Of a stretch of DNA of 33,810 nucleotides, positions 2,910 to 28,400 are shown piece after piece. A model generated the notes under the pieces. It did no database searches. It had not been told where the DNA came from and saw only the letters and a program-made list of their open reading frames with translations. The stretch is taken from contig JAFGXD010000091.1 of the NCBI GenBank assembly GCA_016936815.1, positions 1 through 33,810 of the forward strand, read 5' to 3'. Numbering within the stretch: the stretch's first letter is position 1; each line of letters opens with the position of its first letter. The position numbers were made by a program, and so were the translations under genes. This DNA is from Bacteroidales bacterium. Lineage in GTDB: Bacteria > Bacteroidota > Bacteroidia > Bacteroidales > GWF2-38-335.

Positions 2910-3785
2910 GTGGAAGCAACGGAATTATTAAAAAAAGTAAGGAAAATTGAAATAAAGACCAGGGGTCTTTCAAGACAAATTTTTGCAGGTCAGTACCAGT
3001 CTGCTTTTAAAGGCAGAGGAATGACCTTTAGCGAGGTTAGAGAATATCAATACGGAGATAGTATAAGGGCTATAGATTGGAATGTTACTGCCAGATTTAA
3101 TCATCCTTATGTAAAAATTTATGAGGAAGAACGCGAACTTACGGTTATTATTTTAATTGACTTAAGTGGTTCTGAAATGTTCGGAACTCAAAATCAGTTT
3201 AAAAGAGAACTAATTACCGAAATTGCTGCTGTTTTGTCTTTTTCAGCAATTCATAATAACGATAAAATTGGGGTAATCCTTTTTACCGATATGGTTGAAA
3301 AATTTATTCCTCCAAAAAAGGGAAAGCAACATATCTTAAGAATAATCAGGGAATTGCTCGATTTCACTCCTCAAAATAAAGGTACAAATATTTCAGAAGC
3401 ACTTAAATTCTTTACTAATGCAATTAAAAAGCGTTCAACGGCTTTTATTTTGTCAGATTTTAGAGATAAAAATTTTGAACAGGCTCTAAATATTGCCAAC
3501 AGAAAACATGATGTTGTTGCTCTAAAAGTTTTCGATAAACGAGAACAGGAACTTCCATCGGTTGGCCTGCTTAAACTTTCTCATGCCGAAACAGGAAAAA
3601 CTATGTGGGTCGATACAGCAATTAGAAAGACCAGAGAAGCTTATAAAAAATGGTGGATAATGAATCAACAATCTATTAATGAGTTGTTTTCGAAAAGTGG
3701 TGTGGATTATGTAGATTTAGATACTTCATCCGATTACGTGAGACCTTTAATGCAGTTGTTTAAAAAACGAGATAGTAAGTATTAG
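2910..3785 (+). CDS. DUF58 domain protein of the Bat operon
   Basis: This 291-residue protein has the DUF58 hallmark around residues 36-62 (GRGMTFSEVREYQYGDS followed by RAIDWN) and a von Willebrand A-like second half beginning at VIILIDLSGSEMFG, with a DxSxS metal site (Asp, Ser, Ser). DUF58 proteins accompany MoxR ATPases and are thought to act with them at the membrane. The start is GTG at 2910, with a good ribosome binding site AGGAGA at 2898-2903. An ATG at 2908 is out of frame. The next gene begins 2 bp after the stop. Confidence 0.92.
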   Translation: MEATELLKKVRKIEIKTRGLSRQIFAGQYQSAFKGRGMTFSEVREYQYGDSIRAIDWNVTARFNHPYVKIYEEERELTVIILIDLSGSEMFGTQNQFKRELITEIAAVLSFSAIHNNDKIGVILFTDMVEKFIPPKKGKQHILRIIRELLDFTPQNKGTNISEALKFFTNAIKKRSTAFILSDFRDKNFEQALNIANRKHDVVALKVFDKREQELPSVGLLKLSHAETGKTMWVDTAIRKTREAYKKWWIMNQQSINELFSKSGVDYVDLDTSSDYVRPLMQLFKKRDSKY

Positions 3786-3786
3786 T

Positions 3787-5208
3787 ATGAGAAGAAAGTT
3801 TTTAATATTAATTACAGTAGTTTTTCTCTTTGTTTTAAAGGGAATGTCTCAGCAGCAAAATGTTAGCTATCAGGCCTCATTTAGTAAAGATACTATTTTT
3901 ATTGGAGATACCTTGAATTTGTTATTGGAGGCTTCATTCAGCAATAATTCAATTTTGGTTTTTCCGGAATTTAAAGATACTATAACTAAAGGTCTTGAAA
4001 TTTACCAATTTTCATCAACCGACACTCTTACAAACAAAAAGGGAGAAAAAAAGGCAAGAAAAATTATCAGCCTTATTTCTTTTGAACCCGGAGTGTATGC
4101 AATTAGTGGTTTTCCTGCCCTTTATGTGCAAAAAGACGGGCTTGCAGATACAATTTACTCTAATCAGGTTAGGCTAGCTGTTTTGCCAATGCCAATAGAC
4201 ACTAATGCTATTGATACTGTGTTTGCAGGCATGGACGGTAAAATTATTATGGGTTTGAATTTTGCGGAATCTGTAAAACAAAATTTTATTCCCGATTCTG
4301 TGAAACAGTCTATGAATCAACAAGAAACAGATGCTCTTGTAGACCAAATTTATGGTAGTAAACGTTCGGAAATTCTTTTGGAACTTGTTAGGCAACTAAA
4401 CCTTCCCGATACTATCGGATATATTGAATTGTTGGAAGAAATTATTATGGCTCCCGGTAATGTTCTTTTCATCATTAATAACTCCGGAAAGGCAGAAAGA
4501 CATGTGCTTCCTCAGCTTATTAAGGAAAGTTTTATTCAACAGAAAAAAGAAGTAAAAAAAGGAGATCCTCTTTTTTCATATTTTCCAATTATGGATATTA
4601 AACCGCCTTACGATGAGGAATGGTCAATTTGGGAAGATTTCAAAATTTTCTTGGAAGATTATGGTATATATCTGATAATTATTGTATTACTTATTGCAAT
4701 TGCACTTATTTATTTCATTTATTTCAAGAAAAAGAAACAGAAAGAAGATTTGCCTGCAATGCCTCTGGAACCTGCTCATATTATAGCTTTTAGAGATTTG
4801 AACGACTTAAAAGAAAAGAAATTATGGCAGGCCGGAAAGGTTAAGGAATTTCATTCAAGACTTACGGAAATTTTAAGAAGGTACATGGAACAACGTTATG
4901 GCATTATGGCTTTGGAGCAAACTACCTACGAAATACTTCAATCAATTGCCAAAGAAAAAATATTAAACAAACAAGAAAAAGCTATTCTAAAGGAAATTCT
5001 CGAATTGGCCGATTTGGTGAAGTTTGCGAAATTTACGCCTATTCCCGATGAAAACGACAGAAGCTTAAGAAATTCATACCAATTTGTGGAAAAGACAAAA
5101 ATTGTGGAGGAGATTACTAAAAATGAAGATGTTGACGAAAAGCAACTAGATGAAACTGAGAATTTGAAAGATGATGGTCGAATTACTAAAATGGAGGAGG
5201 ACTTGTAA
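3787..5208 (+). CDS. BatD-like membrane protein with periplasmic domain and cytoplasmic tail
   Basis: 473 residues: signal peptide (1-21), a periplasmic beta-rich domain (about 28-135) with the DTIFIGDTLNL start seen in BatD-type proteins, an uncommon middle segment (about 145-265), a transmembrane helix (about 293-313) and a DUF4381-like cytoplasmic helical domain (about 325-440, with HIIAFRDLNDL and EILRRYMEQRYG). The last 30 residues are acidic. This arrangement resembles proteins encoded between DUF58 and BatA in Bacteroidota Bat operons. The middle segment looks inserted between the beta domain and the conserved DIKPPY linker before the membrane. The gene overlaps batA by one base (TAATG), preceded by a GGAGGA ribosome binding site. 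Confidence 0.8.
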   Translation: MRRKFLILITVVFLFVLKGMSQQQNVSYQASFSKDTIFIGDTLNLLLEASFSNNSILVFPEFKDTITKGLEIYQFSSTDTLTNKKGEKKARKIISLISFEPGVYAISGFPALYVQKDGLADTIYSNQVRLAVLPMPIDTNAIDTVFAGMDGKIIMGLNFAESVKQNFIPDSVKQSMNQQETDALVDQIYGSKRSEILLELVRQLNLPDTIGYIELLEEIIMAPGNVLFIINNSGKAERHVLPQLIKESFIQQKKEVKKGDPLFSYFPIMDIKPPYDEEWSIWEDFKIFLEDYGIYLIIIVLLIAIALIYFIYFKKKKQKEDLPAMPLEPAHIIAFRDLNDLKEKKLWQAGKVKEFHSRLTEILRRYMEQRYGIMALEQTTYEILQSIAKEKILNKQEKAILKEILELADLVKFAKFTPIPDENDRSLRNSYQFVEKTKIVEEITKNEDVDEKQLDETENLKDDGRITKMEEDL

Positions 5209-6230
5209 TGCTGTGGGATTTACTCGATTTTCCGGGATTTAGCGAAGTTGAATTTCAGAACCCCGATTTCTTCTGGCTGGGACTGGTGCTAATTCCAATG
5301 ATTGTTTGGTACATTCTGAAAAATGAAAAATCTAAGGCTTCAATCAGCTTTTCGGGGTACGAAGGTTTCGAAAAGGCTTCATTTAACTATAGATATTGGT
5401 TTAGTCATATTCTTTTTGTGCTAAGAATTGCAGCGGTTGCAAGTTTAATTGTGATTCTTGCCAGACCACAATCTCATAATCAATGGGAAAATGTTAATAC
5501 ACAGGGAATAGAAATTGTAATTGCAATGGATATTTCGGGTAGTATGCTTGCCGAAGACCTTCAACCAAACAGACTTGAAGCAGCAAAAGAAGTTGCAATG
5601 AAGTTTATTTCAGGAAGACCAAACGACAATATCGGACTTGTTGTTTATTCAGGAGAATCTTTTCCGCAATGCCCTCTAACAATGGATCATACATCGCTGC
5701 TAAATGTTTTTGCTCAGGTAAAAAACGGAATGATAGAGGATGGAACTGCAATTGGGCTGGGGCTTGCTAATTCAGTTAACTTACTAAAAGACTCTAAATC
5801 GAAAAGCAAGGTTGTTATTTTGCTTACCGATGGTGTAAATAACCGAGGAATGATTGAACCAAAAGATGCTGCAGATTTAGCTACTCTTTACAATATTAGA
5901 GTTTATACTATCGGTGTTGGTAAAGAAGGAATGGCTCCTTATCCTGTTCAAACTCCTCTGGGAGTTAGCTACCAAAATATGGAAGTGGAAATTGATGAGG
6001 ATATTTTAATCGACATTGCCAAAAAAACCGGAGGAAAATATTTCAGGGCTACTAATAATGAAAGCCTTAAAATGATTTATGAAGAAATAGATCAGATGGA
6101 AAAAACTAAGCAGGAAACAGCAGTTCATTCAAGAACTCAGGAAGAATTTTTCCTTTTTGCTTTTTTAGCGGCAATTTTTGTCCTTTGTGAAATATTATTT
6201 AGAAACCTAATTTTTAAAACTATACCTTAA
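5208..6230 (+). CDS. batA: BatA, von Willebrand factor A membrane protein
   Basis: 340 residues. Two transmembrane helices near the N-terminus (about 22-37 and 66-86), a periplasmic VWA domain with the complete metal-ion site DISGS (Asp108, Ser110, Ser112), TAIG threonine and LLTDG aspartate, then a C-terminal transmembrane helix (about 312-332). BatA and BatB were named from the Bacteroides aerotolerance operon and are thought to form membrane complexes with the TPR proteins. Translational coupling to the preceding gene is likely because their stop and start share a base. batB follows after 2 bp. Confidence 0.93.
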   Translation: MLWDLLDFPGFSEVEFQNPDFFWLGLVLIPMIVWYILKNEKSKASISFSGYEGFEKASFNYRYWFSHILFVLRIAAVASLIVILARPQSHNQWENVNTQGIEIVIAMDISGSMLAEDLQPNRLEAAKEVAMKFISGRPNDNIGLVVYSGESFPQCPLTMDHTSLLNVFAQVKNGMIEDGTAIGLGLANSVNLLKDSKSKSKVVILLTDGVNNRGMIEPKDAADLATLYNIRVYTIGVGKEGMAPYPVQTPLGVSYQNMEVEIDEDILIDIAKKTGGKYFRATNNESLKMIYEEIDQMEKTKQETAVHSRTQEEFFLFAFLAAIFVLCEILFRNLIFKTIP

Positions 6231-6232
6231 GT

Positions 6233-7300
6233 ATGAGCTTCTTTAATTTTCATCATAGCGAATTACTTTGGGGATTGTTAATTATTCCCCTGCTTATTAT
6301 TATTTATTTTGTTGTGAATTATTTTGCTCACAAAAAGCTTCTTAAATTCGGAAACCTTAATCTAGTAAAAACCCTTATGCCTGATAGGTCGAAGTTTAGA
6401 CCTGTTATTAAATTTGTGTTATTAATTTTTGCTATTGGATTTATGATTTTTACTCTGGCCGATAAACCTGAAATACGTGACGATAATACAGATAAAAATG
6501 GAGTTGAAATTATTATTGCCCTCGATATTTCTAATAGCATGATGGCAAACGACATTCCTGCCGGAAGATTGGAAGCAGCCAAAATGACCATTAATAAGCT
6601 TGTTGACAGGCTAGACAAAGAAAATAATATTGGACTAATTGTTTTTGCCGGAGAGGCTTTTGTTCAGTTACCTATTACTCAAAATTTTGTTACTGCCAAA
6701 ATGTTTCTAAAATCTATTAGTCCTGAATTAATTTCTACACAAGGAACTGCTATTGGTGAGGCAATAAACCTTGCCACAAGGTCGTTTACTCCAAAAAATG
6801 AAAATAATAAGGTGCTTATTATTATTACCGATGGCGAAGATCATCAGCAGGATGCCATAGAAATGGCGAAACTTGCCGCTGAAAAAGAAATAATTGTTCA
6901 TACTATTGGAATGGGATTGCCAAAAGGTGGTCCCATACCGGTAATTATTAATGGTAAAAAGGATTATAAACGTAATAGTAATAACGAGATTGTTGTTACC
7001 AAACTAAATCAAAAAATGCTTGTGGATATAGCAAATGCCGGAAAAGGAAAGTATTTCACTTACTCATCAATAAACGGCTTGTTCGAAGAAATTGCAAAGC
7101 TTGATAAAACCAATTTAGCCGAAAATATGGAGGAAGAGGCTGATATTATTATAGAGTCAAGTGACGAAAAGTTCTATTTTCAGGAAAGATTCCTTTGGTT
7201 TGCCGGAATTGCTCTTTTCTTTCTATTATTAGAATTTGTTATTATTGAAAGGAAAAATAGGTTATTCAAAAACTTTAACATTTTTAAACTAAAAATCTGA
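6233..7300 (+). CDS. batB: BatB, von Willebrand factor A membrane protein
   Basis: 355 residues with the same plan as BatA: two N-terminal transmembrane helices (about 11-31 and 60-76), a VWA domain with metal site DISNS (Asp98, Ser100, Ser102), GTAIGEA threonine and IITDGED aspartate, and a C-terminal membrane helix (about 320-340) followed by a basic tail. It is a divergent paralogue of BatA. In related bacteria BatA, BatB and BatC interact. The gap to batC is 4 bp. Confidence 0.93.
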
Positions 7301-7304
7301 TTTT

Positions 7305-8243
7305 ATGAGAAGTATTTTAGTTTTAATATTATCGATAATTTGTTTGCCGGCAATCTCACAACTGGAGAGAAAATATATTAGTAAGGGCACAGATTCTTAT
7401 AACCAAAAACTGTATAAAGCTGCAGAAGATTATTATAGAAAAGCTCTGGAAAATGACCCTGAATCGTTTAAAGCTGCTTATAATATTGGTAATGCATTAT
7501 TCAAACAAGGTAAATTTGAAATGGCAACAAAACAGTATGAGGGTTTGTTGGAACGACCTAATTCAAGAGAACAATTGGCTCAGATTTATCACAATATTGG
7601 CAATTCTTATCTTGAGCAAAATAAGCTTGATGAAAGTATTGAAGCATATAAGAATGCACTAAGAAATAATCCGGGTAATTCAGATACTCAGTATAATCTT
7701 AGTTTTGCATTGCTTCTAAAACAACAACAGGAGCAACAAAATCAAAATCAACAGTGTAATAACCCAAATCAAGATCAAAATCAAGATCAAAATCAGGATC
7801 AAAATCAAGATCAGCAGAATAATGGAGATAATCAGCAGAAAGATAAAAATTACGACGATGCAGATGGCGATGGTATTCCCGATGATGTTGAAAAAGGAGA
7901 AAACCCGGGTAAACCTAGAGATACCGACAAAGATGGAACTCCCGATTATCAGGATACCGATAGCGACAACGACGGACTGCCGGATGAACACGAGGCAGGA
8001 GCAGATCCATCTGAGCCAAAAGATACCGACAAAGATGGTTTGCCCGATTATCGCGATACAGATTCCGATAACGACGGAACACCTGATGGACAGGATGAAG
8101 ATTCGGTTCAGGAAATAAAAATGTCGAAAGAAGATGCTGAAAGGCTTCTTAAAATGCTTATGGAAAAAGAACAGGAGACTTTAGATAAAGTTAATAAGGA
8201 AAAACAAAAACAAGTAAAAGTAAAAACCGAGAAAGACTGGTAA
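7305..8243 (+). CDS. batC: BatC, periplasmic TPR protein with thrombospondin type 3-like acidic repeats
   Basis: 312 residues: signal peptide (1-18), about three tetratricopeptide repeats (about 25-140, e.g. [10 protein letters not shown] and [12 protein letters not shown]), a Gln/Asn/Asp low-complexity linker (about 143-180, including NQDQ four times), then about 80 residues of DxDxDGxPD units (about 185-267) and a highly charged coiled-coil-like C-terminus. The aspartate units match the thrombospondin type 3 style of calcium-binding repeat, in which aspartates at alternating positions ligate the ion. Position and TPRs identify BatC, but the acidic repeat block is not what I expect in this family. 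Calcium binding is inferred from motif only. Confidence 0.85.
7767..7814 (+). repeat. 12-bp tandem repeat inside batC (four copies)
   Basis: Units AATCAAGATCAA at 7767, 7779, 7791 (one G change) and 7803 (last base G) encode NQDQ in frame, residues about 155-170. The unit length is a multiple of three, so slippage would lengthen or shorten the linker without a frameshift. Confidence 0.95.
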
Positions 8244-8254
8244 ACCAAAAAAAT

Positions 8255-10066
8255 ATGAGACTTAGTTTATTTATTTTATCATTAATATTTAGCTCAGGAC
8301 TTCTTGTGGGCCAAGATGTTACAGTTATTGCTTCCGGACCTAACGTTGTGGCCAATGGTGAAGCTTTTTATCTAAAATATCAGGTCAATGCTCAGGCAAC
8401 AAAACTTGTGCCCCCTTCTTTCGGAGATTTCGATTTTCTTGGCGGACCTTCCACTTCTACCATGCACAGTTATTCCAATGTTAATGGAGTAGCACAAAAT
8501 ACTGTTACTTATACATATACATACACTCTAAGGGCAAAAAAAGAAGGGAAGTTTAAACTTAATCCAGCAATTGTAACTGTTGGAGGAAAAGAATATTCGT
8601 CTAATTCAATTACCATTGATGTTGCTAAAGCTAATCAACAATCTAATCAAAATCAGAATACTCAAAACCAAACATCCGGACCTCCCAATATTAGTGGAAA
8701 TGATTTGTATTTATCTGTACTTGTGAATAGAACCAATATTTTTCAAGGCGAGTACCTTGTAGCAACTGTGAAACTTTTCTCTAAAGTAGATTTGGTGGAT
8801 TTGGGTAGTTACAACCCTCCAACTTTTAATGGATTCCTAAAGTCAGAGGTTGAACAGAAACAATTGCAGTTGCAAAAAGAAAATGTTAATGGAAATATTT
8901 ATAATACTGTTGTTATTGCACAATACATTTTAACACCACAAAAAAGCGGTAAGTTAATTATTGAACCTTCTGAAATAGAGTGTGTTATACAATATAGAGT
9001 TAATTCAGGTAGAAGAAGTTTAATGGATGAGTTTTTTGGTAGAAATGTGCAACGAATGACAAAAAAAGTTAGATCCTCTGCTGTTTCAGTTGTTGTAAAC
9101 CCATTACCGGGAAATAAACCCAATGATTTTAATGGCACAGTTGGTAAGTTTAATCTCGAAAGTTCAATAGATAAGAATGAATTAATGGCAAATGAAGCTA
9201 TTACTCTTACTTATACTGTTAAAGGTAAGGGAAATCTAGAACTTATTGATCCTTTTCAAATAAAGTTTCCACATAATTTTGAGGTTTATGATCCGAAAAT
9301 TATTAATAATGTAAGTACCGGAATAAATGGTTCTTCAGGCTCAAAAACATTCGAATATCTTGTAATACCTCGTCATGCCGGTAATTATACAATTCCGGAA
9401 GTTAAGTTTTCATATTTCGATTTAGAATCAAAAACCTACAAACAATTATCGGCACAATCGTATGAAATTTCAGTTGCTAAAGGCGATGGAACTAATGATG
9501 TTCCTGTAATTTCTGGAGTTGAAAAAGAAGATTTAAAGTATATTGGAAAAGATATCAGACATATAAAAACCAATGCTTCAAGTTTTGAAAGAACTAATGG
9601 CTTTATTTTTGGATCGTCAACATATTTTTTAAGTTTCCCTGCTGCTCTTTTGGCTTTTATTCTGATAGTGTTTTTAAGAAAGAACCATATTAAAAAGAAC
9701 TCCGATATAGCAGGCGTTAAGAACAAAAAAGCTAAAAAAATTGCAGAAAAGAGGCTTAGGGTTGCACATTCATATATGAATAGCAGCAATTCTGAATTGT
9801 TTTACGACGAGCTATTGAAAGCTATTTGGGGATATTTTAGCGACAAGTTTAATATTCCGTTGGCTGATTTAAGTCGCGAAAAAATAATTGACAAAATAAA
9901 GGCATTAAATCAGTCGGAAGACTTTGTTTCGGAGGTAAATGCAATAATAGACACTTGCGAGTTTGCCAGATACGCCCCTTCAGAAAGCAAAGGAGAAATG
10001 AATTTTATATACTCAAAAGCAGTTGGAATTATTGGAATGTCGGAAAAAAACTTAAAGCAGATATGA
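8255..10066 (+). CDS. batD: BatD, oxygen-tolerance membrane protein
   Basis: 603 residues: signal peptide (1-19), several periplasmic immunoglobulin-like beta domains beginning DVTVIASGPNVVANGEAF, a Gln/Asn/Ser-rich linker near residues 128-145, a transmembrane helix near 455-473 (around FLSFPAALLAFILIVFL), and a cytoplasmic helical tail with ELFYDELLKAIWGYFSDKF. This is the BatD layout. Its N-terminal beta domain is similar in kind to that of the protein at 3787-5208. It overlaps batE by four bases (ATGA), so the two are likely coupled. Confidence 0.92.
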   Translation: MRLSLFILSLIFSSGLLVGQDVTVIASGPNVVANGEAFYLKYQVNAQATKLVPPSFGDFDFLGGPSTSTMHSYSNVNGVAQNTVTYTYTYTLRAKKEGKFKLNPAIVTVGGKEYSSNSITIDVAKANQQSNQNQNTQNQTSGPPNISGNDLYLSVLVNRTNIFQGEYLVATVKLFSKVDLVDLGSYNPPTFNGFLKSEVEQKQLQLQKENVNGNIYNTVVIAQYILTPQKSGKLIIEPSEIECVIQYRVNSGRRSLMDEFFGRNVQRMTKKVRSSAVSVVVNPLPGNKPNDFNGTVGKFNLESSIDKNELMANEAITLTYTVKGKGNLELIDPFQIKFPHNFEVYDPKIINNVSTGINGSSGSKTFEYLVIPRHAGNYTIPEVKFSYFDLESKTYKQLSAQSYEISVAKGDGTNDVPVISGVEKEDLKYIGKDIRHIKTNASSFERTNGFIFGSSTYFLSFPAALLAFILIVFLRKNHIKKNSDIAGVKNKKAKKIAEKRLRVAHSYMNSSNSELFYDELLKAIWGYFSDKFNIPLADLSREKIIDKIKALNQSEDFVSEVNAIIDTCEFARYAPSESKGEMNFIYSKAVGIIGMSEKNLKQI

Positions 10067-10812
10067 AAAACATTATAATAATTTTGGGAATAGTTATTGC
10101 ACTAGTTGGTCAATCGCAGACTAGTGAATTACTCGATTCGGCAAATGCCAGATATAATGAAGGGAATTATACTCTGGCAATTAACTCCTATAAAAAAATT
10201 ATTTCTATGGGTTATGTATCGGCCGACTTGCATTACAATCTTGGAAATGCATATTACAGAACCGGCGATTTTCCTCATGCAATATTAAACTATGAAAGAG
10301 CTAGAAAACTATCGCCCAACGATGAAGATATTAAGTTTAACTTGCATTTGGCTTACTTAAAAGTTAGTGCAAAAAATGAGACAAAGCCTGAGTTGACAGT
10401 AAATATTTGGCTAAAAAATATAAGAATGATTGCTAGTTCAAATTCGTGGGCAATTTTTTCTATTATAAGTTTTATTATTTTTCTTAGCCTTGTTTTGGTT
10501 TTCCTATTTTCGTCAAATATTACTACTAAGAGAATTTTGTTGGTAGGAGCTGTTGTTTTATTATTTTTTTCTGTAATAGCTACAATTTTTTCCTACCAAA
10601 GAAAAAACGATGTTTTAAATTTTTCCACCGCAGTAATCTCCGACCCCACAGTAACCGTTAAAAGCTCTCCTGATGTTAATGGTAACGATGTTTTTATTGT
10701 TTATGAAGGGGCAATGGTATCGGTAAAAGACTCCATTCCGGGCTGGAAGAGGGTTGTTCTGCAAAATGGCGAATCGGGATGGATTCCCGCAGGGACTATT
10801 GTTGAAATATAG
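10063..10812 (+). CDS. batE: BatE, TPR and SH3-domain membrane protein
   Basis: About 249 residues: signal peptide or anchor (1-19), TPR units (about 25-110, e.g. ADLHYNLGNAYYRTGDFPHA), two adjacent membrane helices (about 130-150 and 160-178), and a C-terminal bacterial SH3-like domain (about 190-249, with VTVKSSPDVNGNDVFIVYEG and WIPAGTIVEI). The frame is open upstream to 9955, but the ATG at 10063 is chosen because it begins the signal peptide and overlaps the batD stop as ATGA. It ends the operon; no strong terminator hairpin follows. Confidence 0.92.
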   Translation: MKNIIIILGIVIALVGQSQTSELLDSANARYNEGNYTLAINSYKKIISMGYVSADLHYNLGNAYYRTGDFPHAILNYERARKLSPNDEDIKFNLHLAYLKVSAKNETKPELTVNIWLKNIRMIASSNSWAIFSIISFIIFLSLVLVFLFSSNITTKRILLVGAVVLLFFSVIATIFSYQRKNDVLNFSTAVISDPTVTVKSSPDVNGNDVFIVYEGAMVSVKDSIPGWKRVVLQNGESGWIPAGTIVEI

Positions 10813-14753: not shown

Positions 14754-17369
14754 TCAAAACCCCTCACCTTTAACAAACTTGGAACTTATAACTCCCTTAC
14801 TACTATAAATTTTAACCAAATAAATTCCATTAGGCAAGGAGTTGATATCAATTTCAGCAACTTGTCTTTCGGGTGTTTGCTGCAGCAGCTTTTTTCCATT
14901 TATATCGTAAACCTCAATTTTTCGGGTAAATTCGGGTAAATTAATATACACAATATCTCTCGAAGGATTGGGATAGACAATGGTTTGTGAAAGTTTTTGC
15001 TCGGGTATTGAAACGGGAATTTCGCTAACATAAGTATTAACAGCAGTATTTGTAACAATTGCAGGATTGTAATCGAAGAAAATATAGGCTGTATTTGTTA
15101 CCATTGTTCCTTCTGCAAGATTTGGTTTTGGAGAAATAGAATACCTCACAAAACCATGACTTTCAGGTTCGTTTACTATGCTGTCGGGAAGCAAAATATT
15201 TTGGAAACTGAAAATGAGTTCGTTACCGGTATCCAATTCCAAGCTAACCGGATGACTAAATGCTTCGAGTGTGAAAGTTTCAAAATCCAGATTGTTGCTT
15301 ATTGTATCGCGAATAACCACAGTAAAAGCTGTATCGTTTCCGGTGTTTTGAAAACGTATGGTGTAGGTAAGTCGATCACCGTGTAGCACATATCCGGGAC
15401 TGCCAAAACCCGCCGGACTTACATTCTTATCGTTTGGATCGAATGAACCGGTAATTTCCTGTATCAAAGTATCGTAATTGTTTACCAGACAAGTATCAGG
15501 ATCTATTGGAGTAATAAATGCAGTTGAAAATAGCGTATCTCCTAAAAATTCTACACCCGGAACCACAAAGTCTGTTCTAATTACATTTTGCACGCCAGGT
15601 CCTAAATTTTCGTATTCAAACTCAAGAGTATTTCCAATAATAGAACTTGGTGTAATTGAACTTGAAACATAAGTAAGCAAAGAATCATACTCAAAACTAA
15701 CAGTACCCGAAGCATTTACAGTGCCCCAGTTTTTGCAGGTTAGCCAGTAATGAGTTGCAAAACCGGCACGAGTAGGGCCGCCGGTTATATACACAGCCAC
15801 ATCGGGAATATTAACTTTAGATAATATTCCAATATCAAGACTATCAACAAGTTGACCTGCCGAATCTATACTAAAAACATAATCGTCGGTTGTTGAATAC
15901 CAGTGAGCTAGAGGCACATAAGAAACAGTATAATTTCCCGGTTCAGCATAAAAATAGTAATACCCATCATTATTCGTAAAAGCAAATTGAGGTCCCGGTT
16001 CAAGCTTAACCATTTGATCTGCAACAACCGCTTCATCGAGGTCTTTTATTTGGTTTTCGTTTTCGTCTAGGAACATATTGCCGGTAATATTTGGTTCAAA
16101 AAGTTTCACTACCCACATATCATAACTACCATTATTTCCTGAAACATTGCCATCATTTGAATTTGTCGTACCAGCCACTATATAACCACCATCGATGGTC
16201 TGCTGAACGTTATATGCTCCATCAATTCCACTTCCACCTAGACATTTTTGCCATTTAATATTTCCGAGATTATCCAGTATCGCAACCCAAAAATCTACAT
16301 TTCCATGATTTCCGGAAACATCTCCATCATTTGATTCTGAATTTCCTGCCACTATATATCCACCATCTGAGGTTATTTGTATGGAAAAAGAATGTTCCCA
16401 ATATGTTCCTCCCAAACATTTTTGCCATTGAATATTTCCGAGATTATCCAGTTTGACAATCCAGACATCATAACCCCAGTTATATCCAAAAACATCGCCA
16501 TCACCAGAGCATGTCTCACCTGCAACTATGTAACCTCCATCTGCTGTTTGTTTTATAGAAAATGCTCCATCCCAGTCAGTTCCCCCCAAACATTTTTGCC
16601 ATTGCAAATCCCCAAGATTATCTAGTTTAACAACCCACATATCCTCTTCACCATTATTTCCTGAAACATCTCCATCATTTGAAAATGTATAGCCTGTTAC
16701 AATATATCCACCATCGGTAGTTTGCTGAATATAATGTGCTCTATCATATTCTGTTCCCCCAAAACATTTTTGCCATATAATATTTCCACTATTATCCAAT
16801 TTCACTATCAACATGTCTTCATTTCCATTATTTCCTGAAATATCTCCATCATTTGACCAGGTATATCCCGCTACAATATATCCATTATCTATTGTCTGTT
16901 GAATGAAATATGCATAATCATCATTTGTTCCACCTATGCATTTTTGCCATTGAATATTCCCGGAATTATCTAATTTAACAAACCATATATCATAACTACC
17001 ATTATTTCCCGTAACATCGCCATTATTTGAATTTGTCGTACCAACCACAATATAACCACCATCATCGGTCTTTTGAATGTGGGTTGCATAATCATCATTT
17101 GTTCCCCCAAAACATTTCTGCCACAGTAAATTTCCAATAATATCCAATTTCACTATCCATATATCAGTACCTCCATTATTTCCTGAAACATCACCATTAT
17201 TTGAACTGGTGCTTCCCGCAACAATATATCCACCATTAGAGGTTTGTTGAATGGAATATGCGTAATCACCATCAGTTCCCCCCAAACATTTCTGCCACTG
17301 AATATGCACCTGGCAGTTTAGCATGAAAGAAAAAGACAAAACAAAAAGAATTGAGAATAAGGTTTTCAT
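14754..17369 (-). CDS. T9SS-secreted protein with seven repeats, Cna-B-like and DUF11-like domains
   Basis: 871 residues: signal peptide (1-19); seven repeats of about 58 residues (about 22-425), each with WQKC(L/F/I)GGT, then QQT..GGYIVAG, then NNGxxDxWxVKLD; a SdrD B/Cna-B-like domain (about 428-500, FLDENENQIKDLDEA); immunoglobulin-like regions ending in a conserved-repeat (DUF11-like) domain (about 640-790, YTIRFQNTGNDTAFTVVIRDT); and a type IX secretion sorting domain (about 800-871, YPNPSRDIVYINL ... GIYLVKIYSSKG). It is presumably exported and anchored or released at the cell surface. Seven repeats could close a beta-propeller. Function unknown. It has its own promoter. Confidence 0.85.
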   Translation of the reverse strand: MKTLFSILFVLSFSFMLNCQVHIQWQKCLGGTDGDYAYSIQQTSNGGYIVAGSTSSNNGDVSGNNGGTDIWIVKLDIIGNLLWQKCFGGTNDDYATHIQKTDDGGYIVVGTTNSNNGDVTGNNGSYDIWFVKLDNSGNIQWQKCIGGTNDDYAYFIQQTIDNGYIVAGYTWSNDGDISGNNGNEDMLIVKLDNSGNIIWQKCFGGTEYDRAHYIQQTTDGGYIVTGYTFSNDGDVSGNNGEEDMWVVKLDNLGDLQWQKCLGGTDWDGAFSIKQTADGGYIVAGETCSGDGDVFGYNWGYDVWIVKLDNLGNIQWQKCLGGTYWEHSFSIQITSDGGYIVAGNSESNDGDVSGNHGNVDFWVAILDNLGNIKWQKCLGGSGIDGAYNVQQTIDGGYIVAGTTNSNDGNVSGNNGSYDMWVVKLFEPNITGNMFLDENENQIKDLDEAVVADQMVKLEPGPQFAFTNNDGYYYFYAEPGNYTVSYVPLAHWYSTTDDYVFSIDSAGQLVDSLDIGILSKVNIPDVAVYITGGPTRAGFATHYWLTCKNWGTVNASGTVSFEYDSLLTYVSSSITPSSIIGNTLEFEYENLGPGVQNVIRTDFVVPGVEFLGDTLFSTAFITPIDPDTCLVNNYDTLIQEITGSFDPNDKNVSPAGFGSPGYVLHGDRLTYTIRFQNTGNDTAFTVVIRDTISNNLDFETFTLEAFSHPVSLELDTGNELIFSFQNILLPDSIVNEPESHGFVRYSISPKPNLAEGTMVTNTAYIFFDYNPAIVTNTAVNTYVSEIPVSIPEQKLSQTIVYPNPSRDIVYINLPEFTRKIEVYDINGKKLLQQTPERQVAEIDINSLPNGIYLVKIYSSKGVISSKFVKGEGF
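16097..17303 (-). repeat. Seven tandem ~175-bp coding repeats
   Basis: The array encodes seven copies of about 58 residues in the secreted protein. Stretches such as the complement of CATTTTTGCCA recur at each unit start, and the units are clearly similar at DNA level but not identical. The length is in frame, so recombination between units would change the copy number without disrupting the gene. Confidence 0.9.
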
Positions 17370-19374: not shown

Positions 19375-20514
19375 TTATTGTTTTATTATTTTGTAAGTAA
19401 AAAATCTGTTGCTGTTTGAAATTTGAATCAAGTAAATTCCTTCACCAAATTTAGTTGTTGGGAACTCGTAACGATCTCCTGCAAAGCTTACCGATTCCAC
19501 AATCTCTCCTGTAAGGTTGTAAATTTTCAATACACTTAATCCTTTTGGGTTTTCAATTTCAATAGATAAAATATCTTCAACAGGATTTGGATAGGCTGTG
19601 GCTTTTAAGGGTTTTACTTTTGAGATTTGCGTTAAATCACAAGATTGCTCGTAAGTAATTCTTCCCGATAATTGCAATGAATCGTTAAATTCGTTTATTG
19701 CCTCGTTATCATCTCTTAACGTATAGTCGAACCATATATTTATAAAATCGAACAATACATCGTGAATTTCTTCTCTGTCGAAGGTTGCGGAAGCATCAAA
19801 CAATGAGCAGTTAAAGTTATAATCGGCAAAATAACAATGATTGCAACCTGTAACACTAATAAAACTCTTACATGAGCTTGCAAGTGCGTTATACATAGGT
19901 GTTTGATTTTCACCGGCAGGGGCTATTGCATCTAAAGAACCCGAAAAGACTATTGCAGGCATGGTTATGCTAGCTGCTGCAGTTATTGCTGATGGTGTTG
20001 TTTCAGCAGCCGCAAAAGTTACCATTGTGGTAATATTGGGATTTGCATCAGCGGCAATAAAGGAGCTTCCACCACCCATAGAATGACCCATAACTGCTGT
20101 TTTGTCAGAAACTTTTCCAAAGAAATGAGAACCTGAATTCAAATTTTCCTCTTGCATCTTGCTTGCTAAAAATGCCAAATCTAATCCAAATGACTCGTGT
20201 GATGGCGACATACCTCCTTCAGTTCTCGGAAAAACCATAATGTATCCTTTTGGAACAAATTCATTCCAAAAGTTTGAATATGAGCTCCATGCCATTACAA
20301 AACCGTGACCGAAAACCAAAACCGGAAATTCTCCCGCTGCCATTGCTACATCATCACCTGCTACATCAGTCGGGTAATAAACCTCTGTTTGTATTTCACG
20401 ATCTGACCTGTCGGGGTCGTAAAAATAAATCTGTTTGTGACCAATTTCGTAGGTCTGACTGAACAATGTTATGCTCAGAAATGTGAATAAAAGGACTAAT
20501 TGCGATTTTTTCAT
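19375..20514 (-). CDS. T9SS-secreted alpha/beta hydrolase (esterase-like), short paralogue
   Basis: 379 residues: signal peptide (1-20), alpha/beta hydrolase (about 22-290) and a type IX secretion sorting domain (about 300-379, AYPNPVEDILSIEI ... GIYLIQIS). The catalytic triad is probably Ser145 in GHSMGGG, Asp195 in SGSLDAIAP and His226 in GCNHCYF; His70-Gly71 in FGHGF probably helps form the oxyanion hole. This motif order is that of dienelactone-hydrolase/chlorophyllase relatives and cutinase-like polyester hydrolases. Several cysteines around the histidine could form disulphides. It is the last gene of an operon and begins one base after the tetR stop. The substrate is unknown. Confidence 0.88.
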   Translation of the reverse strand: MKKSQLVLLFTFLSITLFSQTYEIGHKQIYFYDPDRSDREIQTEVYYPTDVAGDDVAMAAGEFPVLVFGHGFVMAWSSYSNFWNEFVPKGYIMVFPRTEGGMSPSHESFGLDLAFLASKMQEENLNSGSHFFGKVSDKTAVMGHSMGGGSSFIAADANPNITTMVTFAAAETTPSAITAAASITMPAIVFSGSLDAIAPAGENQTPMYNALASSCKSFISVTGCNHCYFADYNFNCSLFDASATFDREEIHDVLFDFINIWFDYTLRDDNEAINEFNDSLQLSGRITYEQSCDLTQISKVKPLKATAYPNPVEDILSIEIENPKGLSVLKIYNLTGEIVESVSFAGDRYEFPTTKFGEGIYLIQISNSNRFFTYKIIKQ

Positions 20515-21113: not shown

Positions 21114-23948
21114 TTATTTTTGAATAATCAACTTTTTGGTAATAATACTATTTCTAGAAACAATTTTTAGATAGTATATACCCTCAGAAAGAATACTTAA
21201 ATCGAAAGAATTCTCTTTTTGAGCCTGAATTATATTTTGTTCCAATATTTTTCTTCCGCAATTGTCGAATATTATTATTTCCGCAAAGTCTTCACTAATG
21301 TTTAAACTAAAAACACCGGAAGTTGGATTTGGAAATATTTCCGCAACAATTTTATTATCAATTTCTTCTGTGCCAACTTCCATTTCCACATAAACTGAAT
21401 CTTCATCCCAGCAGCCAAACTCATCGTTAACAAGAACGCCGTACCAACCATCTTCGGTTACTGTAAGAGTCTGATTAGTAGAAAAATCCCACCAAAGATA
21501 CTCAGGAGCAAACGGAAAAGTTCCGGCGTTTAAGGTGAAAGGGTAGGAGGCTACAGAAATGGTGTCGTTTGTTCCGCCTAAATCAACATTTAGTTCGTAG
21601 GAAACAATTGTGCCGGTTATTGTGTTGTTAGCTGTTATTTCATCTTCCGCAAATTCAAACCATACATTTAAATCATAAGATCCATAACCTGAAAGGTCTA
21701 CTTGCGAATCGAATTCAAAAAAAATGTTTGCACCTATATCTAAAACTGAGGTTAGGGTTCTTGTTTCGGTATTTACAGGGAAAGATTCAATTTGGTAAAA
21801 AATGTCAATTGAGGAACCTGAGGAAATAATTGTTTCACCTATATTTTGTATTCCAATTGATATGGTATCTGTGCCATCGAAATAGCAACTGTAGTTTTGA
21901 ATTTGAGGATAAATAATTGACAAATCGGTTGTTAGAAGAACTTCATCCATAAAATCTATGTTTATTGCTGTTTGCGAATAATCGATTAATGAAGAAGCAG
22001 AACCGCCTGTAAATGCAGCGTCTAGAAATGTTATTTCCAGATTTGAAACATCATTTGCATCTTCGTGAGCAATTGCGTTGCCGGTTAGTGAAATTGTTGC
22101 TTGAGATGAACTTGTAACATTGATTTCAATTCCTAAGCCGGCCGGAAGATTTGCTGCGTTGTAATGAGTTGATTGAGTGAGAATTCCTGTTGTTGCAAAA
22201 GTTTCAACTTCTAGTGTTATATCAATTGTATTTCCAATGCTTCCGTCGTTTGCAGCAGCCTCAGAAAAGTTTAAGGAACTCCAATTAACGCTTGGAACCG
22301 GGGGAGGAGCTGTTATTGAAACATCGTCTAGGTACACCGAATAATAGAAATTCCCATAATAATGAAATCCAATATACACATTCTGACCAACATACGCAGA
22401 TAAATCAACAACAGTTTCTTGCCAAGTTGTGCCGGAAAGACTAACGGCAGTCCATGTAAAGTCGTTAGGATTGTTAGTGGTAGAAATTCCCCATTCCAAA
22501 ACTTCGGCACTTGAGTTGTATTTTCGATGCCAGAAGGATAGTACGGTAAAATCTTCATCAATAGTAAATTGAGGTGTAAACAGATATTGATTGTAGTTTG
22601 AAGAAGAGCTAATTGAACTGAATCTTGCAGAGTAAGTACCTGAAGGAGTGTGGTTTTGCGAACTCGACTGAGTTATATCGTTTGGTGAACTTCCTCCGGG
22701 TAGAACTTTGCTCCAACAATTGGGAAGGAAGCTGCCTTCAAAATCCTCAGTCCATGGGAATGCTGTTATCATGCCACATGAACTTGAAAACTGGTAAGGA
22801 CCAGCCCAATAGCTTAATTCGCCACCACAATCGGCTTGTACATAAAACTCGTAAGTTGTTGAAGCCGATAATCCTGCAACAGAATACGGATTTGAACTAA
22901 TACTGTTGTAAGTTGTAATTGCGGCTCCTGTTCCGGGAGTAAAGCCCGGTGTTCCTAATTCTATGTTCCAAAGCGTTTCCGAACCGGCAGGATTCCATGA
23001 AATATCTGCAGACGAGGAGGTAATATTTGAAGCATTTAGTCCCAAAGGCGGATTGCAAGCAGAAAGGTCGCACGATTGCTGATAAGTTATATCTGTTGTT
23101 GTGGGAAGCAAGGCGTTAAAATCATCAATTGCCTCATCATCGCTTCCTAAAGTATATTCGAACCAGGGGGTTAAGAAACTGAAAACAATAGCATGAATTT
23201 GGTCTCTTGTCAATGTAGCCGAAGCATCGAACATTGAGCAATTGAAATTGTAATCGGCAAAATAGCAATGATTACAGCCTGTAACGCTAATAAAATTTTT
23301 GCAATAACTTGAAAGAGCGTTGTACATTGGAATTTGGTTTTCGTCAGCTGGTGCAATTCCATCTACAGAACCAGAGAAAACAATTGATGGAATGTAAATA
23401 TCGGCGGCAGCAGCAATAGCTGAAGGAGTGGTTTCAGCAGCCGCAAATGTTACGATAGTATTTATGTTTGAATTTGCCTGAGCAGCAATAAATGAGCTTC
23501 CTCCTCCCATAGAATGCCCCATTACTGCCGTTTTTGTTCCTACTTTGCCGAAGAAAATAGAACTTGAGTTAATATTTTCATCCTGCATTGCATCTGCTAA
23601 AAATGCCAAATCTAGTCCAAAAGCTTCGTGCGATGGCGACATTCCTCCTTCGGTTCGTGGGAAAACCATTATATATCCTTTAGGAACAAATTCTTCCCAA
23701 AAATTAGCGTAAGAATCCCAGGTCATAACAAAACCGTGACCAAAAACAATAACAGGAAACTCTCCTGTTGTTAGGTCAACATTATCGCCAGCAACATCTG
23801 CCGGATAATAAATTTCTGTCCATATTTCTCTGTTACTTCTATCTGGGTCGTAAAAATACTGAGTCTTATGCCCGATTTGGTAGGGTTGCGCTTTTGCAAT
23901 AATGCTCAGAAACAAAATTGCCATAAGTAAAAGTTGTGATTTTTTCAT
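21114..23948 (-). CDS. T9SS-secreted multidomain alpha/beta hydrolase, long paralogue
   Basis: 944 residues: signal peptide (1-20); alpha/beta hydrolase (about 22-295) with Ser146 in GHSMGGG, Asp196 in SGSVDGIAP and His227 in GCNHCYF, very similar throughout to the hydrolase at 19375-20514; a fibronectin type III domain (about 300-390, LNASNITSSSADISW); a MAM/cleaved-adhesin-like domain (about 395-550, FPWTEDFEG ... YLDDVSI); beta-rich domains (about 550-860); and a type IX sorting domain (about 870-944, IFPNPTSGVFSLNIS). The added domains suggest binding to a polymer, a surface or another cell. It is the first gene of the operon, with a leader of about 70 nt. Confidence 0.88.
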   Translation of the reverse strand: MKKSQLLLMAILFLSIIAKAQPYQIGHKTQYFYDPDRSNREIWTEIYYPADVAGDNVDLTTGEFPVIVFGHGFVMTWDSYANFWEEFVPKGYIMVFPRTEGGMSPSHEAFGLDLAFLADAMQDENINSSSIFFGKVGTKTAVMGHSMGGGSSFIAAQANSNINTIVTFAAAETTPSAIAAAADIYIPSIVFSGSVDGIAPADENQIPMYNALSSYCKNFISVTGCNHCYFADYNFNCSMFDASATLTRDQIHAIVFSFLTPWFEYTLGSDDEAIDDFNALLPTTTDITYQQSCDLSACNPPLGLNASNITSSSADISWNPAGSETLWNIELGTPGFTPGTGAAITTYNSISSNPYSVAGLSASTTYEFYVQADCGGELSYWAGPYQFSSSCGMITAFPWTEDFEGSFLPNCWSKVLPGGSSPNDITQSSSQNHTPSGTYSARFSSISSSSNYNQYLFTPQFTIDEDFTVLSFWHRKYNSSAEVLEWGISTTNNPNDFTWTAVSLSGTTWQETVVDLSAYVGQNVYIGFHYYGNFYYSVYLDDVSITAPPPVPSVNWSSLNFSEAAANDGSIGNTIDITLEVETFATTGILTQSTHYNAANLPAGLGIEINVTSSSQATISLTGNAIAHEDANDVSNLEITFLDAAFTGGSASSLIDYSQTAINIDFMDEVLLTTDLSIIYPQIQNYSCYFDGTDTISIGIQNIGETIISSGSSIDIFYQIESFPVNTETRTLTSVLDIGANIFFEFDSQVDLSGYGSYDLNVWFEFAEDEITANNTITGTIVSYELNVDLGGTNDTISVASYPFTLNAGTFPFAPEYLWWDFSTNQTLTVTEDGWYGVLVNDEFGCWDEDSVYVEMEVGTEEIDNKIVAEIFPNPTSGVFSLNISEDFAEIIIFDNCGRKILEQNIIQAQKENSFDLSILSEGIYYLKIVSRNSIITKKLIIQK

Positions 23949-24168: not shown

Positions 24169-25488
24169 ATGATAAAACCATTCGACAGAAAAATTCTTAG
24201 GCTCGCACTACCTAATATTGTCAGCAACCTTACGGTTCCTTTGCTTGGTATGGCCGATTTGGCAATATTGGGGCATTTGGAGTCAATAGATTATCTTTCT
24301 GCCGTAGCTCTCGGAGGAATGGTCTTTTCAATTATTTATTCGGTTTTCGGTTTTTTACGAATGGGTACAAGCGGGTTTGCAGCTCAGGCAATTGGTTCAA
24401 GAGATTTAAGCGAAACAGCACTTGTTTTCTTGCGGGCAATGTTTGTTGCTCTTGCAATTGGCTTTTTGCTAATAGCTTTGCAAGTTCCAATTGATGTAGC
24501 TGCTTTTTCTATGATAGATGGCGCTGCTGAGGGGTCGGAATCGGTAAAAACACTGGCTGCAGAATATTTCTATATTCGTATATGGGCAGCTCCTGCAACA
24601 ATGGCAATTTTTGTCTTTAACGGCTGGTTTATTGGAATGCAAAATGCCAGGTTTCCGATGTTTGTTGCAATTCTAATAAATGTAATAAATGTTGGTTTAA
24701 ACTTGCTTTTTGTTTTTGGTCTTAATATGAAATCCGACGGGGTAGCTTATGGAACGCTAATAGCACAATATTCGGGATTGTTGGTTAGTGTGTTTCTGTT
24801 TTGGAAATATTACAAAAAAGTCTTTAAAAATGTAATGCCTAATCAGGTTTTTATTACTGCGAAAATTCTTCGTTTTCTTAATGTGAATAAAGATATTTTC
24901 ATACGATCTTTTACAATTATGTTGGTCTTATCGTTTTTTACCCTTCAATCGTTTGCAGAAAATAAAGAAACTCTTGCCATTAATACTTTGTTGCTTCAAT
25001 ACTTCTTTATTTACGCTTATTTTATGGATGGTTTTGCAAATGCTGCTGAGGCTCTTACAGGTAAATATATTGGAGCAGGCGACAAACTGATGCTAAGAAA
25101 ATCTATTTCAAGAAATTTTGCATGGGGGTTTTATCTCACAATTCCTTTTGCCATTGTTTACTTTTTTGCGGGAGATGCTCTGCTGCAGTTTCTTACAAAC
25201 GATGCGAATTTAATTGAAAAATCGGCTGAATACCTTCCATGGATTGCGTTAATTCCTTTAGTTTCTTGTGTTGCTTTTATTTGGGACGGTATTTACATTG
25301 GTGCAACAGCTTCGGCAGGTTTAAGAAATACCATGCTGATTGCAACTTTCGTGTTTTTTGCACCAACATGGTATTTTCTAAACGATTCTTTAGGGAATCA
25401 TGCTCTTTGGTTGGCCTTTATTTTATTTCTTTTTGGCCGAGGATTAATGCAGACAATTTTCGCAAAGTCTTCTATAAGAATTCCTTAA
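24169..25488 (+). CDS. dinF: MATE-family exporter, DinF type
   Basis: 439 residues with about twelve membrane helices. The N-terminus RLALPNIVSNLTVPLLGMADLAILGHL and the C-terminal WDGIYIGATASAGLRNTM and NHALWLAF closely follow the E. coli DinF subfamily, as does the length (about 440). MATE proteins export cationic or hydrophobic compounds using Na+ or H+. DinF has been linked to oxidative and bile stress, and the substrate here is unknown. It diverges from the hydrolase operon, and its stop overlaps the stop of the convergent macroglobulin gene. No ribosome binding site precedes the ATG, which fits an almost leaderless message. Confidence 0.93.
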   Translation: MIKPFDRKILRLALPNIVSNLTVPLLGMADLAILGHLESIDYLSAVALGGMVFSIIYSVFGFLRMGTSGFAAQAIGSRDLSETALVFLRAMFVALAIGFLLIALQVPIDVAAFSMIDGAAEGSESVKTLAAEYFYIRIWAAPATMAIFVFNGWFIGMQNARFPMFVAILINVINVGLNLLFVFGLNMKSDGVAYGTLIAQYSGLLVSVFLFWKYYKKVFKNVMPNQVFITAKILRFLNVNKDIFIRSFTIMLVLSFFTLQSFAENKETLAINTLLLQYFFIYAYFMDGFANAAEALTGKYIGAGDKLMLRKSISRNFAWGFYLTIPFAIVYFFAGDALLQFLTNDANLIEKSAEYLPWIALIPLVSCVAFIWDGIYIGATASAGLRNTMLIATFVFFAPTWYFLNDSLGNHALWLAFILFLFGRGLMQTIFAKSSIRIP

Positions 25489-28400
25489 TCATCAATTTTT
25501 ACTCTAATTCCTTCGCTGTGTGAGCCAAATTCGGGAGCGTACATACATTGAATAGAGGTTATTCCGTTGCTGAAATCGCCTTTATGACTTACTCTTAGTG
25601 CATATTCGAAAACGTAAGTTCCTTTTGGCAGATAAGAAATAAAGAAGTTTGTTGCTGCATCTTTGGTGCTTTCGTAATATCCCAAACCATCCTGATATTT
25701 GTACCTTGAAATTACATTTACAGGCTCGAAACCCGATGCACGCATATCTTTCATGTGTACGTATTCCATGGCGCGGTCGCAACGAAGCTCAATTCTTACA
25801 ATTATTTTGTCGCCAACTTTTAGCTTGTTTTTAGAAATAGGTTCAATAACTTTTCCTCTATCGGTCATTTTTTCTACAAACAATTTTTTCTCAAGTTTTA
25901 GTGGAGTTTCGGCAGGTGTAATTTTGTCAAGTTGTTCAAAATATTGCCAGTAAAGTGCTCCCCAGGCTACTCCTTCATCTTTTTTAGTTATTTTTACTTT
26001 TCCCATTTCAGGTGTAATTTCTCCTTTTCCCCACGATGTTTTAAAGTATCCTGTTCCGGCTTCAACCTGCACACCATCTAGTTTTTTAGGATCAATTATT
26101 TGGTCTCCCAATTGAATTTCAACCATTTGATCAGATTCTAACCAGTCGGCTCCTCTTAACAAAAGAGCATAAACGGCTTCCACAGTGGCTTTTGTGGTTT
26201 TCCAGTCTTGAGTTTGCTTTTGTTTCAATAGCCAAACTTTCATATCGTCTACTGCTTTATTGTCTTTTGCTACTTCATCGAAAAGTTCAATAAGCAAAGC
26301 TTGTCGTTCAATTGGAGCCTCATACCAGTAATATCCAACGTTGTCTTTCCAAAACATTCCAAGTTCTTCCGAATTTATTGAATGTTCACGAAGAGATTTT
26401 ATTATGTCGGTAGGAGTTTTTTCATCGGCCATTCTGTGAAGTGCAAGACCAATCATTCCTTGCATATATTTGCTTTCGCTAAGCCAGTAGCGTTGTGCCT
26501 GAAGTTTGTAATATTCATAGGCTTCTTCAATTCTTTTAGGAATGGGTTGATCTAAAAAGTAGGAGCGGGTGTACAAATAATGAATTTGTGTGCTTCCAAT
26601 CATCTTATCCTGCATTTCCTTCTCGGTGTAATGCTTTTTCAGATAATCGTAATCTTCCTTAATTCTGTCGTCAATATAATCAATGGCTTTTTTCACCATA
26701 TTCCATACTTTACTGTCTTCGCGAACTGCTTTAACGCCCAAAACATCTAAATGACCAAATCCGCAAACAATATGTTGGGTAATGTAACGACTTTCTGGCA
26801 TTCCTTTAAACCACGGCCAGCCACCGTTAGAAACCTGCATTTTCAATAATTTTTCAATAGCCGACTGTAATTCCCCCGACATTTTATTTAGGTCGAAAAG
26901 CAATCCTATTCTTTTCTTCCTTTGTGTTTCGTTCTGAGCATTAAGAACCCAAGGAGTTTCTTCAAGCAACAAGGCCTTAAGCTCTTGATTTTTCTCCAGA
27001 TTGCTCAATAAAGCCTTAGAATCGGGAGTATTTTTCCACGAATCGAAAACTTTCTTAATTTTTGGTGAAGAATTTGCAACATGCGATGCAAGTGAATTAG
27101 CGTAAAACCTGCTAAATACCTGTTCTGCACATTCGTAAGGGTATTCTATTAAGTAAGGAAGAGCCTGAACGGCATACCAAGCAGGATTTGAAGTAAACTC
27201 CAAAGTTAGTTTTTCGTGTTTTAGAGTTTTTGAACCGCCCGAATTTACAAGCTTTTCGAAGGTAAATTCTTTGCTTTGGTTACCTCTTATGGGTAAAGGC
27301 ATAGATTCGGTTACTAACATACGGTTTGTAAGAACAGGAACTGCATTTTGCTCACCATCGCTGAATTTGCCCGCTTTGGCAATTATTTTGTATTCTACCG
27401 CTCCCAGACCTTCGGGTATTTCAAGCTCCCAAGTAACAAGGGTATTTTGCTTGGCTTTTATGGTGAAGTCTTTTTTGAGGTTTTTGTCTTTAATTATATT
27501 GGTAATTGGTTTTCCAGTAATTGCATCGAGAAATTCTATTTCGGCAGTTCCTGAAATTTCTTTATCGTTTAGGTTCGAAATTTTTACGGGAAGTTCAATC
27601 TTGTCGTTTTCTCTGAAGAATCGGGGAATATTTGGCAACAACATAAGTTCTTTTTGGGTAACAAGCTCTTCGGAAATTATTCCGCTTTTCAAATCTTTTG
27701 TATGAGCCAAACCCAACATTTTCCAACGAGTTAAGGATTCCGGAATAGTAAATTTCACTATTAAATCACCGTCTTTATTGGTCTCTAAATGTGGATAGAA
27801 AAACGCCGTTTCGTTAAAGTTGGTTCTTACTTTTACGGGAGCATTGGATGCATTATTATTTTCTCCTGCCATTTCTGTTGAAGAAAGAAGTCCATCAGCA
27901 ATATCTACTGAATATGTAGCTGGTTTAGCCAAGTCAGCACCAAATTCGTCACCCGATTCTTCCGATTCGGCAACAGCCATTAACTTGGCACTTTCTTTTT
28001 TTCCTGCATTACCTCCGTTACCATTCATGTAATATGCGGCTTTTTCGTTTTTCGACCTGCTTTTTCCTTCGCCATCTCCTGTATAAGTTGTATATCGGTT
28101 GGAATAGCCGTAGTAATTAAATCCGAACCAATTTAATTTGTCGTGGTAAGGTGTTGAATATGAGTGATATTTAGTAAAGTTTTCACTAACAACCTGTGAA
28201 TACGACAAGCTAAAATCGTTACTATTTCTTCCTCTTGAAGCGTTGTAGTAATCGTTAATATTGAAGGTAAAATAATTTGCTCTGAATATATCCAATGAGG
28301 CATCGTAAAGTGTTGCCATCATTTCGGCTGCTACTTTTTCACCGTTTTTTCCTCTAATTTTTATTTTCCACTCTTCGGTCTCACCGGGTTGAAGTTTATC

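Follow-up and report, generated by a model that had tools for sequence, protein, structure and literature searches.

A TSP3-like block of five predicted Ca2+-type loops in the linker of BatC from some Bacteroidales

The batC gene of a Bacteroidales bacterium, located within a stretch of 33,810 nucleotides that was analysed as a whole (the window), encodes a TPR protein followed by an acidic repeat block. This raises the question of whether the block is a thrombospondin type 3 (TSP3)-type module, how common such a module is in BatC and what it might do in the MoxR-Bat complex. The original prediction had seen in it a Ca2+-dependent spacer or sensor for which no description in BatC was known. 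In accordance with the latter, a literature search, with most subscription journals outside its range, found no paper joining "BatC" with "thrombospondin type 3".

The open reading frame at 7305-8243 (+ strand, 312 amino acids) is batC by its gene context, as it is flanked by batB and batD in a moxR-DUF58-batA-batB-batC-batD-batE operon, which is intact on the + strand of the window. The AAA+ ATPase gene moxR (1439-2476, +) was named from sequence and context and not by profile. It is separated by a small ORF from the gene at 2910-3785 (+), whose product we take, from general knowledge and context and not from a profile, to be the DUF58-type protein of MoxR/Bat operons; its counterpart adjoins the bat genes in relatives. 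The VWA proteins BatA (5208-6230, +) and BatB (6233-7300, +) exhibit the MIDAS motif DxSxS at residues 108 and 98, respectively, and batC is followed by batD (8255-10066, +; Pfam BatD 2.9e-48) and batE (10063-10812, +; TPR, weak SH3). A further ORF of 473 amino acids (3787-5208), situated between the DUF58 gene and batA, is conserved in position and had no Pfam match above cut-off.

The protein itself shows the features expected of BatC, namely a signal peptide, a TPR domain, a conserved C-terminal helix and a Trp end. Its best match in the NCBIfam library is the BatC model NF047507, with 65.7 bits still below the cut-off of 175; this model takes its name from Leptospira BatC and does not define BatC in general. 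The Sec signal peptide (residues 1-18, 7305-7358) is followed by Gln19, which is invariant in 19 sequences, and for exported proteins of Bacteroidetes the Q-rule predicts exactly such a Gln after the signal peptide (PMC5837995). Consequently, the block most likely resides in the periplasm, a compartment with available Ca2+. The TPR domain (residues 20-150, 7362-7754) was recognized by Pfam TPR_1 (1.1e-16), was modelled by AF2 with a pLDDT above 90 over most of its length and found TPR structures in Foldseek, among them TPRs of co-chaperones with C-terminal peptides as ligands (HOP, RPAP3). In the large block-bearing group, most families carry an extra, helical-looking insertion of about 20 amino acids in this domain, which is longer in G035 (L179) and absent from the window's genus, from SZUA-609/JC017 and from family f11. 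A low-complexity Q/N/D linker of low model confidence follows (residues 151-182, 7755-7850, including a 12-bp TRF array at 7766-7813). Behind the block, the C-terminal helix (residues 275-304, 8127-8216) is conserved in BatC with and without block, and the protein ends with K-D-W (8232-8240). Trp is the last residue in 132 of 135 BatC proteins, mostly as K-D-W or K-N-W, and is a candidate C-terminal docking motif for a TPR, either BatC's own or that of BatE.

The acidic DxDxDGxPD block behind the TPRs is real. Its motifs start at residues 185, 206, 219, 240 and 253, i.e. with a spacing of 21-13-21-13, and all five units are complete 12-residue EF-hand-like loops of the form DxDxDGxPDxx[E/D]. 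The tandem Ca2+-loop pattern of TSP3, DxDxDGxxDxx(D/E), is hence found in five out of five loops. When residues 140-272 were shuffled 100,000 times at the same composition, 0.003 units were obtained on average and never more than one. The block (residues 185-264) extends from 7857 to 8096, so that the previously proposed interval of 7858-8106 was right within a few bases and out of frame by one. Loops 1 to 5 are predicted at 7857-7892 (residues 185-196), 7920-7955 (206-217), 7959-7994 (219-230), 8022-8057 (240-251) and 8061-8096 (253-264), all on the + strand. The two halves of the block, residues 206-229 and 240-263, are internal repeats with 14 identical, 5 synonymous and 5 non-synonymous codons. 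BatC's two cysteines are located at residues 13 and 151, and the block contains none; it thereby lacks the disulfide cysteines of TSP3 in animal thrombospondins, which bacterial TSP3 do not need. A search of the window's own genome for the pattern DxDGxPD at the DNA level placed it in batC and at one isolated site elsewhere. This pattern search was preferred to a whole-genome Pfam TSP_3 search, whose negative outcome was set aside because it overlooked even the BatC block.

Comparison with known families and structures gave a graded picture. The full-length window protein reached 12.5 bits with TSP3_bac, and the block fragment alone 17.7 bits with TSP_3 and 14.4 bits with TSP3_bac, all below the Pfam cut-off of 25. 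Among 19 homologous block-bearing BatC proteins, 16 to 17 matched the two models at E up to 1, the best values being 6.8e-7 (TSP_3) and 1.5e-6 (TSP3_bac). A single block sequence found no match in the PDB. A profile built from 13 blocks matched the signature domain of COMP (cartilage oligomeric matrix protein), which binds Ca2+ (3fby, E 4.8e-4), the OmpA-family structure 5wtl (0.006) and the EF-hand metal protein lanmodulin (0.022). The AF2 model of the block, calculated from an alignment of four rows, consists mostly of coil with short turns (pLDDT 77, one of five models above 55). With this model Foldseek found 3fby as its sole and weak match (E 0.35, TMq 0.31), and VIA-align superimposed the two with a Z below 2. 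The block is therefore called TSP3-like, since its build is of TSP3 type and the window protein lies under the Pfam cut-offs for membership. In the Pfam TSP_3 comparison, which the original prediction had put forward as a check, the window protein thus fell short, but the relatives, the COMP profile match and the ligand conservation described below outweigh this result.

For the analysis of conservation the 19 block-bearing BatC proteins, which come from three separate lineages, were aligned. Counted over the five loops, 473 of the 475 cells at ligand positions 1, 3, 5, 9 and 12 contain D, N or E, which, together with the COMP match, supports the TSP3-type pattern that had been claimed. In loop 1 all five ligand positions are kept in 19 of 19 proteins, loops 2, 3 and 4 show the same ligand conservation, and loop 5 is the most variable, with Q at position 12 in 2 of 19. 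The loops are the best-conserved part of BatC: the block shows a mean pairwise identity of 70%, compared with 41% for both the TPRs and the C-terminus and 38% for the linker. By column, identity is 96% for the motif and 53% for the rest of the block, and the 42 invariant alignment columns consist mostly of D, G, P or E residues within the block. The excess conservation is hence carried mostly by ligand, Gly and Pro positions. Such a pattern is as expected of a metal-binding scaffold and does not single out a protein-binding surface. A supposed greater variability of the non-ligand loop positions compared with the TPRs was dropped, as their average is 0.47 versus 0.41.

The position of the block in the protein is equally regular. 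Without block, the stretch between the TPRs and the C-terminal helix measures 46-107 amino acids (median 68, n=71 BatC), compared with 121-146 amino acids (about 138) in the 17 of 19 block-bearing proteins measured, so the block was evidently added to the linker and not substituted for it. It is flanked by the Q/N/D-rich linker and by the C-terminal helix; in the BatC of SZUA-609 and JC017, Q/N-rich stretches flank it on both sides. Because the helix and the Trp end are common to both kinds of BatC, the block lies in a tether between two conserved parts. The number of units is five throughout and the 13-21-13 spacing is fixed, with a first gap of 19 to 26.

BatC was found in 266 of 294 genomes of the window's order, and among the matches listed (E to about 3e-29) it carries the block in 17 of these 266. 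The remaining BatC among the matches listed align only until about residue 182, in the low-complexity linker, and block-bearing proteins should be among those listed, given that in relatives about 100 bits come from the block alone. The 17 genomes, in all of which the block was read, belong to nine families (f1, f11, f17, f35, f55, f61, f65, f69 and f100). A draw of 396 genomes from the class yielded no block-bearing BatC outside the order; the candidate G349 has an acidic linker without loops, and seemingly full-length BatC of G016, G268 and G349 proved to have acidic linkers only (L181-L183). In a draw of 345 genomes from the phylum, block matches other than the window's were located in ORFs of 590-2350 amino acids which are not BatC. 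When 60 genomes of the order were searched with the 83-residue block, BatC accounted for six of the seven strong matches. Outside BatC, its relatives (L198-L204) form long and variable arrays within large secreted-type proteins. In a named collection the block was present in 3 of 80 BatC-like loci, namely those of Bacteroidetes bacterium GWF2_38_335 (the window's genus), Bacteroidales SZUA-609 and Marinilabiliaceae bacterium JC017, whose record bears no metagenome-assembly mark. With 17 genomes in the order and 3 of 80 named loci, the block is neither unique nor routine in BatC, and the original prediction was correct in regarding it as unusual.

In order to follow its history, a tree was calculated from the operon's DUF58 protein, BatA, BatB and BatD, excluding BatC (77 rows, 1564 columns; a quick tree with some low supports). 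Block-bearing BatC appear in three separate places on this tree: in a group of eight families including one member without block (f36), in the window's genus, and in SZUA-609/JC017, whose sister G030 has no block. Four changes are needed, at least three of them by well-supported branches. A single unbroken clade of block-bearing BatC is contradicted by the tree, which calls for at least 3-4 changes. The absence of the block from the BatC of f36 (G036, L236), which is nested among carriers, is likely a loss. As the units are the same in number and spacing, the module may have arisen once and then been lost or transferred.

What the module does can be approached from its design. The sequences make it very probable that the block binds Ca2+. 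We propose, and consider somewhat more probable than its denial, that it serves as a Ca2+-rigidified spacer which separates the TPR domain from the C-terminal helix and its K-(D/N)-W end. A fixed-length module of five tandem EF-hand-like loops has been inserted into the flexible tether of BatC, and each loop would bind periplasmic Ca2+ via D1, D3, D5, D9 and E/D12. A strand nearly devoid of secondary structure of its own would thereby become a compact, semi-rigid rod. Once loaded, the rod would set how far apart, and in what orientation, the TPR domain and the docking element at the C-terminus stand within the MoxR-Bat complex; these two parts may contact different partners. As most BatC have no such module, the complex does not need the block in general; in block-bearing Bacteroidales it probably depends on calcium.

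The same sequence facts would also serve a Ca2+ sensor or switch. Loss of periplasmic Ca2+ upon envelope damage or chelation would unfold the block, lengthen the tether and alter the state of MoxR-Bat, with the variable loop 5 as a possible site of lower affinity; a sensor would require an affinity near ambient Ca2+. A study of bat deletions in Leptospira biflexa, which did not support a direct action of Bat against oxidative damage, left open a periplasmic signalling role of Bat (PMC3557215). Against this stand the lack of any Ca2+-dependent Bat behaviour on record and the ordinary size of the partner proteins in block-bearing genomes, and we regard the switch as rather improbable. That the complex of some Bacteroidales is in fact gated by periplasmic Ca2+ through a block that changes tether length, and so acts as a sensor of envelope calcium, seems to us unlikely. 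From the proposed "Ca2+-dependent spacer or sensor" the spacer is thus the part which the data favour, as the block sits where a spacer would, and Ca2+ sensing is the part which they do not.

Other functions are less likely still. The nearly or fully invariant non-ligand residues T207, A231, G232, P235, P238 and S254 could belong to a specific surface for a partner protein or a cell-wall polymer, with Ca2+ just stabilising it, but many non-ligand positions are free to vary (identity 0.12-0.36) and the non-motif mean of 0.53 is little above the TPR mean of 0.41, which leaves such a surface quite improbable. Even less probable is a store or donor of metal serving the MIDAS sites in BatA and BatB: both motifs are retained and encoded beside BatC, but the VWA domains are kept although most BatC have no block, a mechanism of transfer is lacking, and MIDAS usually takes Mg2+. 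Any tie between the block and the MIDAS metals is conjecture. Low complexity is general in BatC linkers, some of which are strongly acidic and free of loops (L181-L183), so that a neutral acidic filler resembling TSP3 could be imagined; it is hardly credible in view of a register, ligands and unit number which stay constant, at 70% identity, over three lineages; the adjoining linker does not.

The observation behind the original prediction is confirmed and its interpretation partly supported. A conserved module of putative Ca2+ loops that is acquired or dropped whole by lineages offers a handle on Bat function. Read as a rigid spacer, it predicts that the ends of BatC must be held apart and that the Bat complex of block-bearing bacteria would depend on or respond to Ca2+.

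Further genes were noted elsewhere in the window, on the - strand. An 871-residue protein (14754-17369) contains about 7 copies of a 174-bp tandem repeat (16102-17305), a type IX secretion tail (Por_Secre_tail) and DUF7619. Two neighbouring alpha/beta hydrolases (19375-20514 and 21114-23948; Pfam PETase-like, 2.8e-18 and 2.5e-17) both carry type IX secretion tails, and the gene at 25485-31622 encodes a bacterial alpha-2-macroglobulin of 2045 amino acids (MG2, A2M, bMG10).

Compared with known systems, the block shares with COMP (3FBY) and TSP3 (PF02412) the tandem DxDxDGxxDxx(D/E) loops in two alternating spacings, but it comprises five units instead of a long wire, is free of Cys and, in the window protein, scores below the Pfam cut-off. 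The bacterial TSP3_bac arrays (PF18884) of OmpA-type (5WTL) and large secreted-type Bacteroidota proteins have a nearly identical unit, DTDxDGxPDYxDxDSDNDGIPDxxEAG (L199-L204). Those arrays are long, variable and attached to very large or outer-membrane proteins, whereas the BatC module is short, fixed and part of a soluble periplasmic TPR protein. Finally, BatC of the Bacteroides type agrees with the window protein in operon order, signal peptide, TPRs, QN linker, C-terminal helix and terminal K-(D/N)-W, but spans the corresponding distance with a linker of about 68 amino acids that contains no TSP3-like block.
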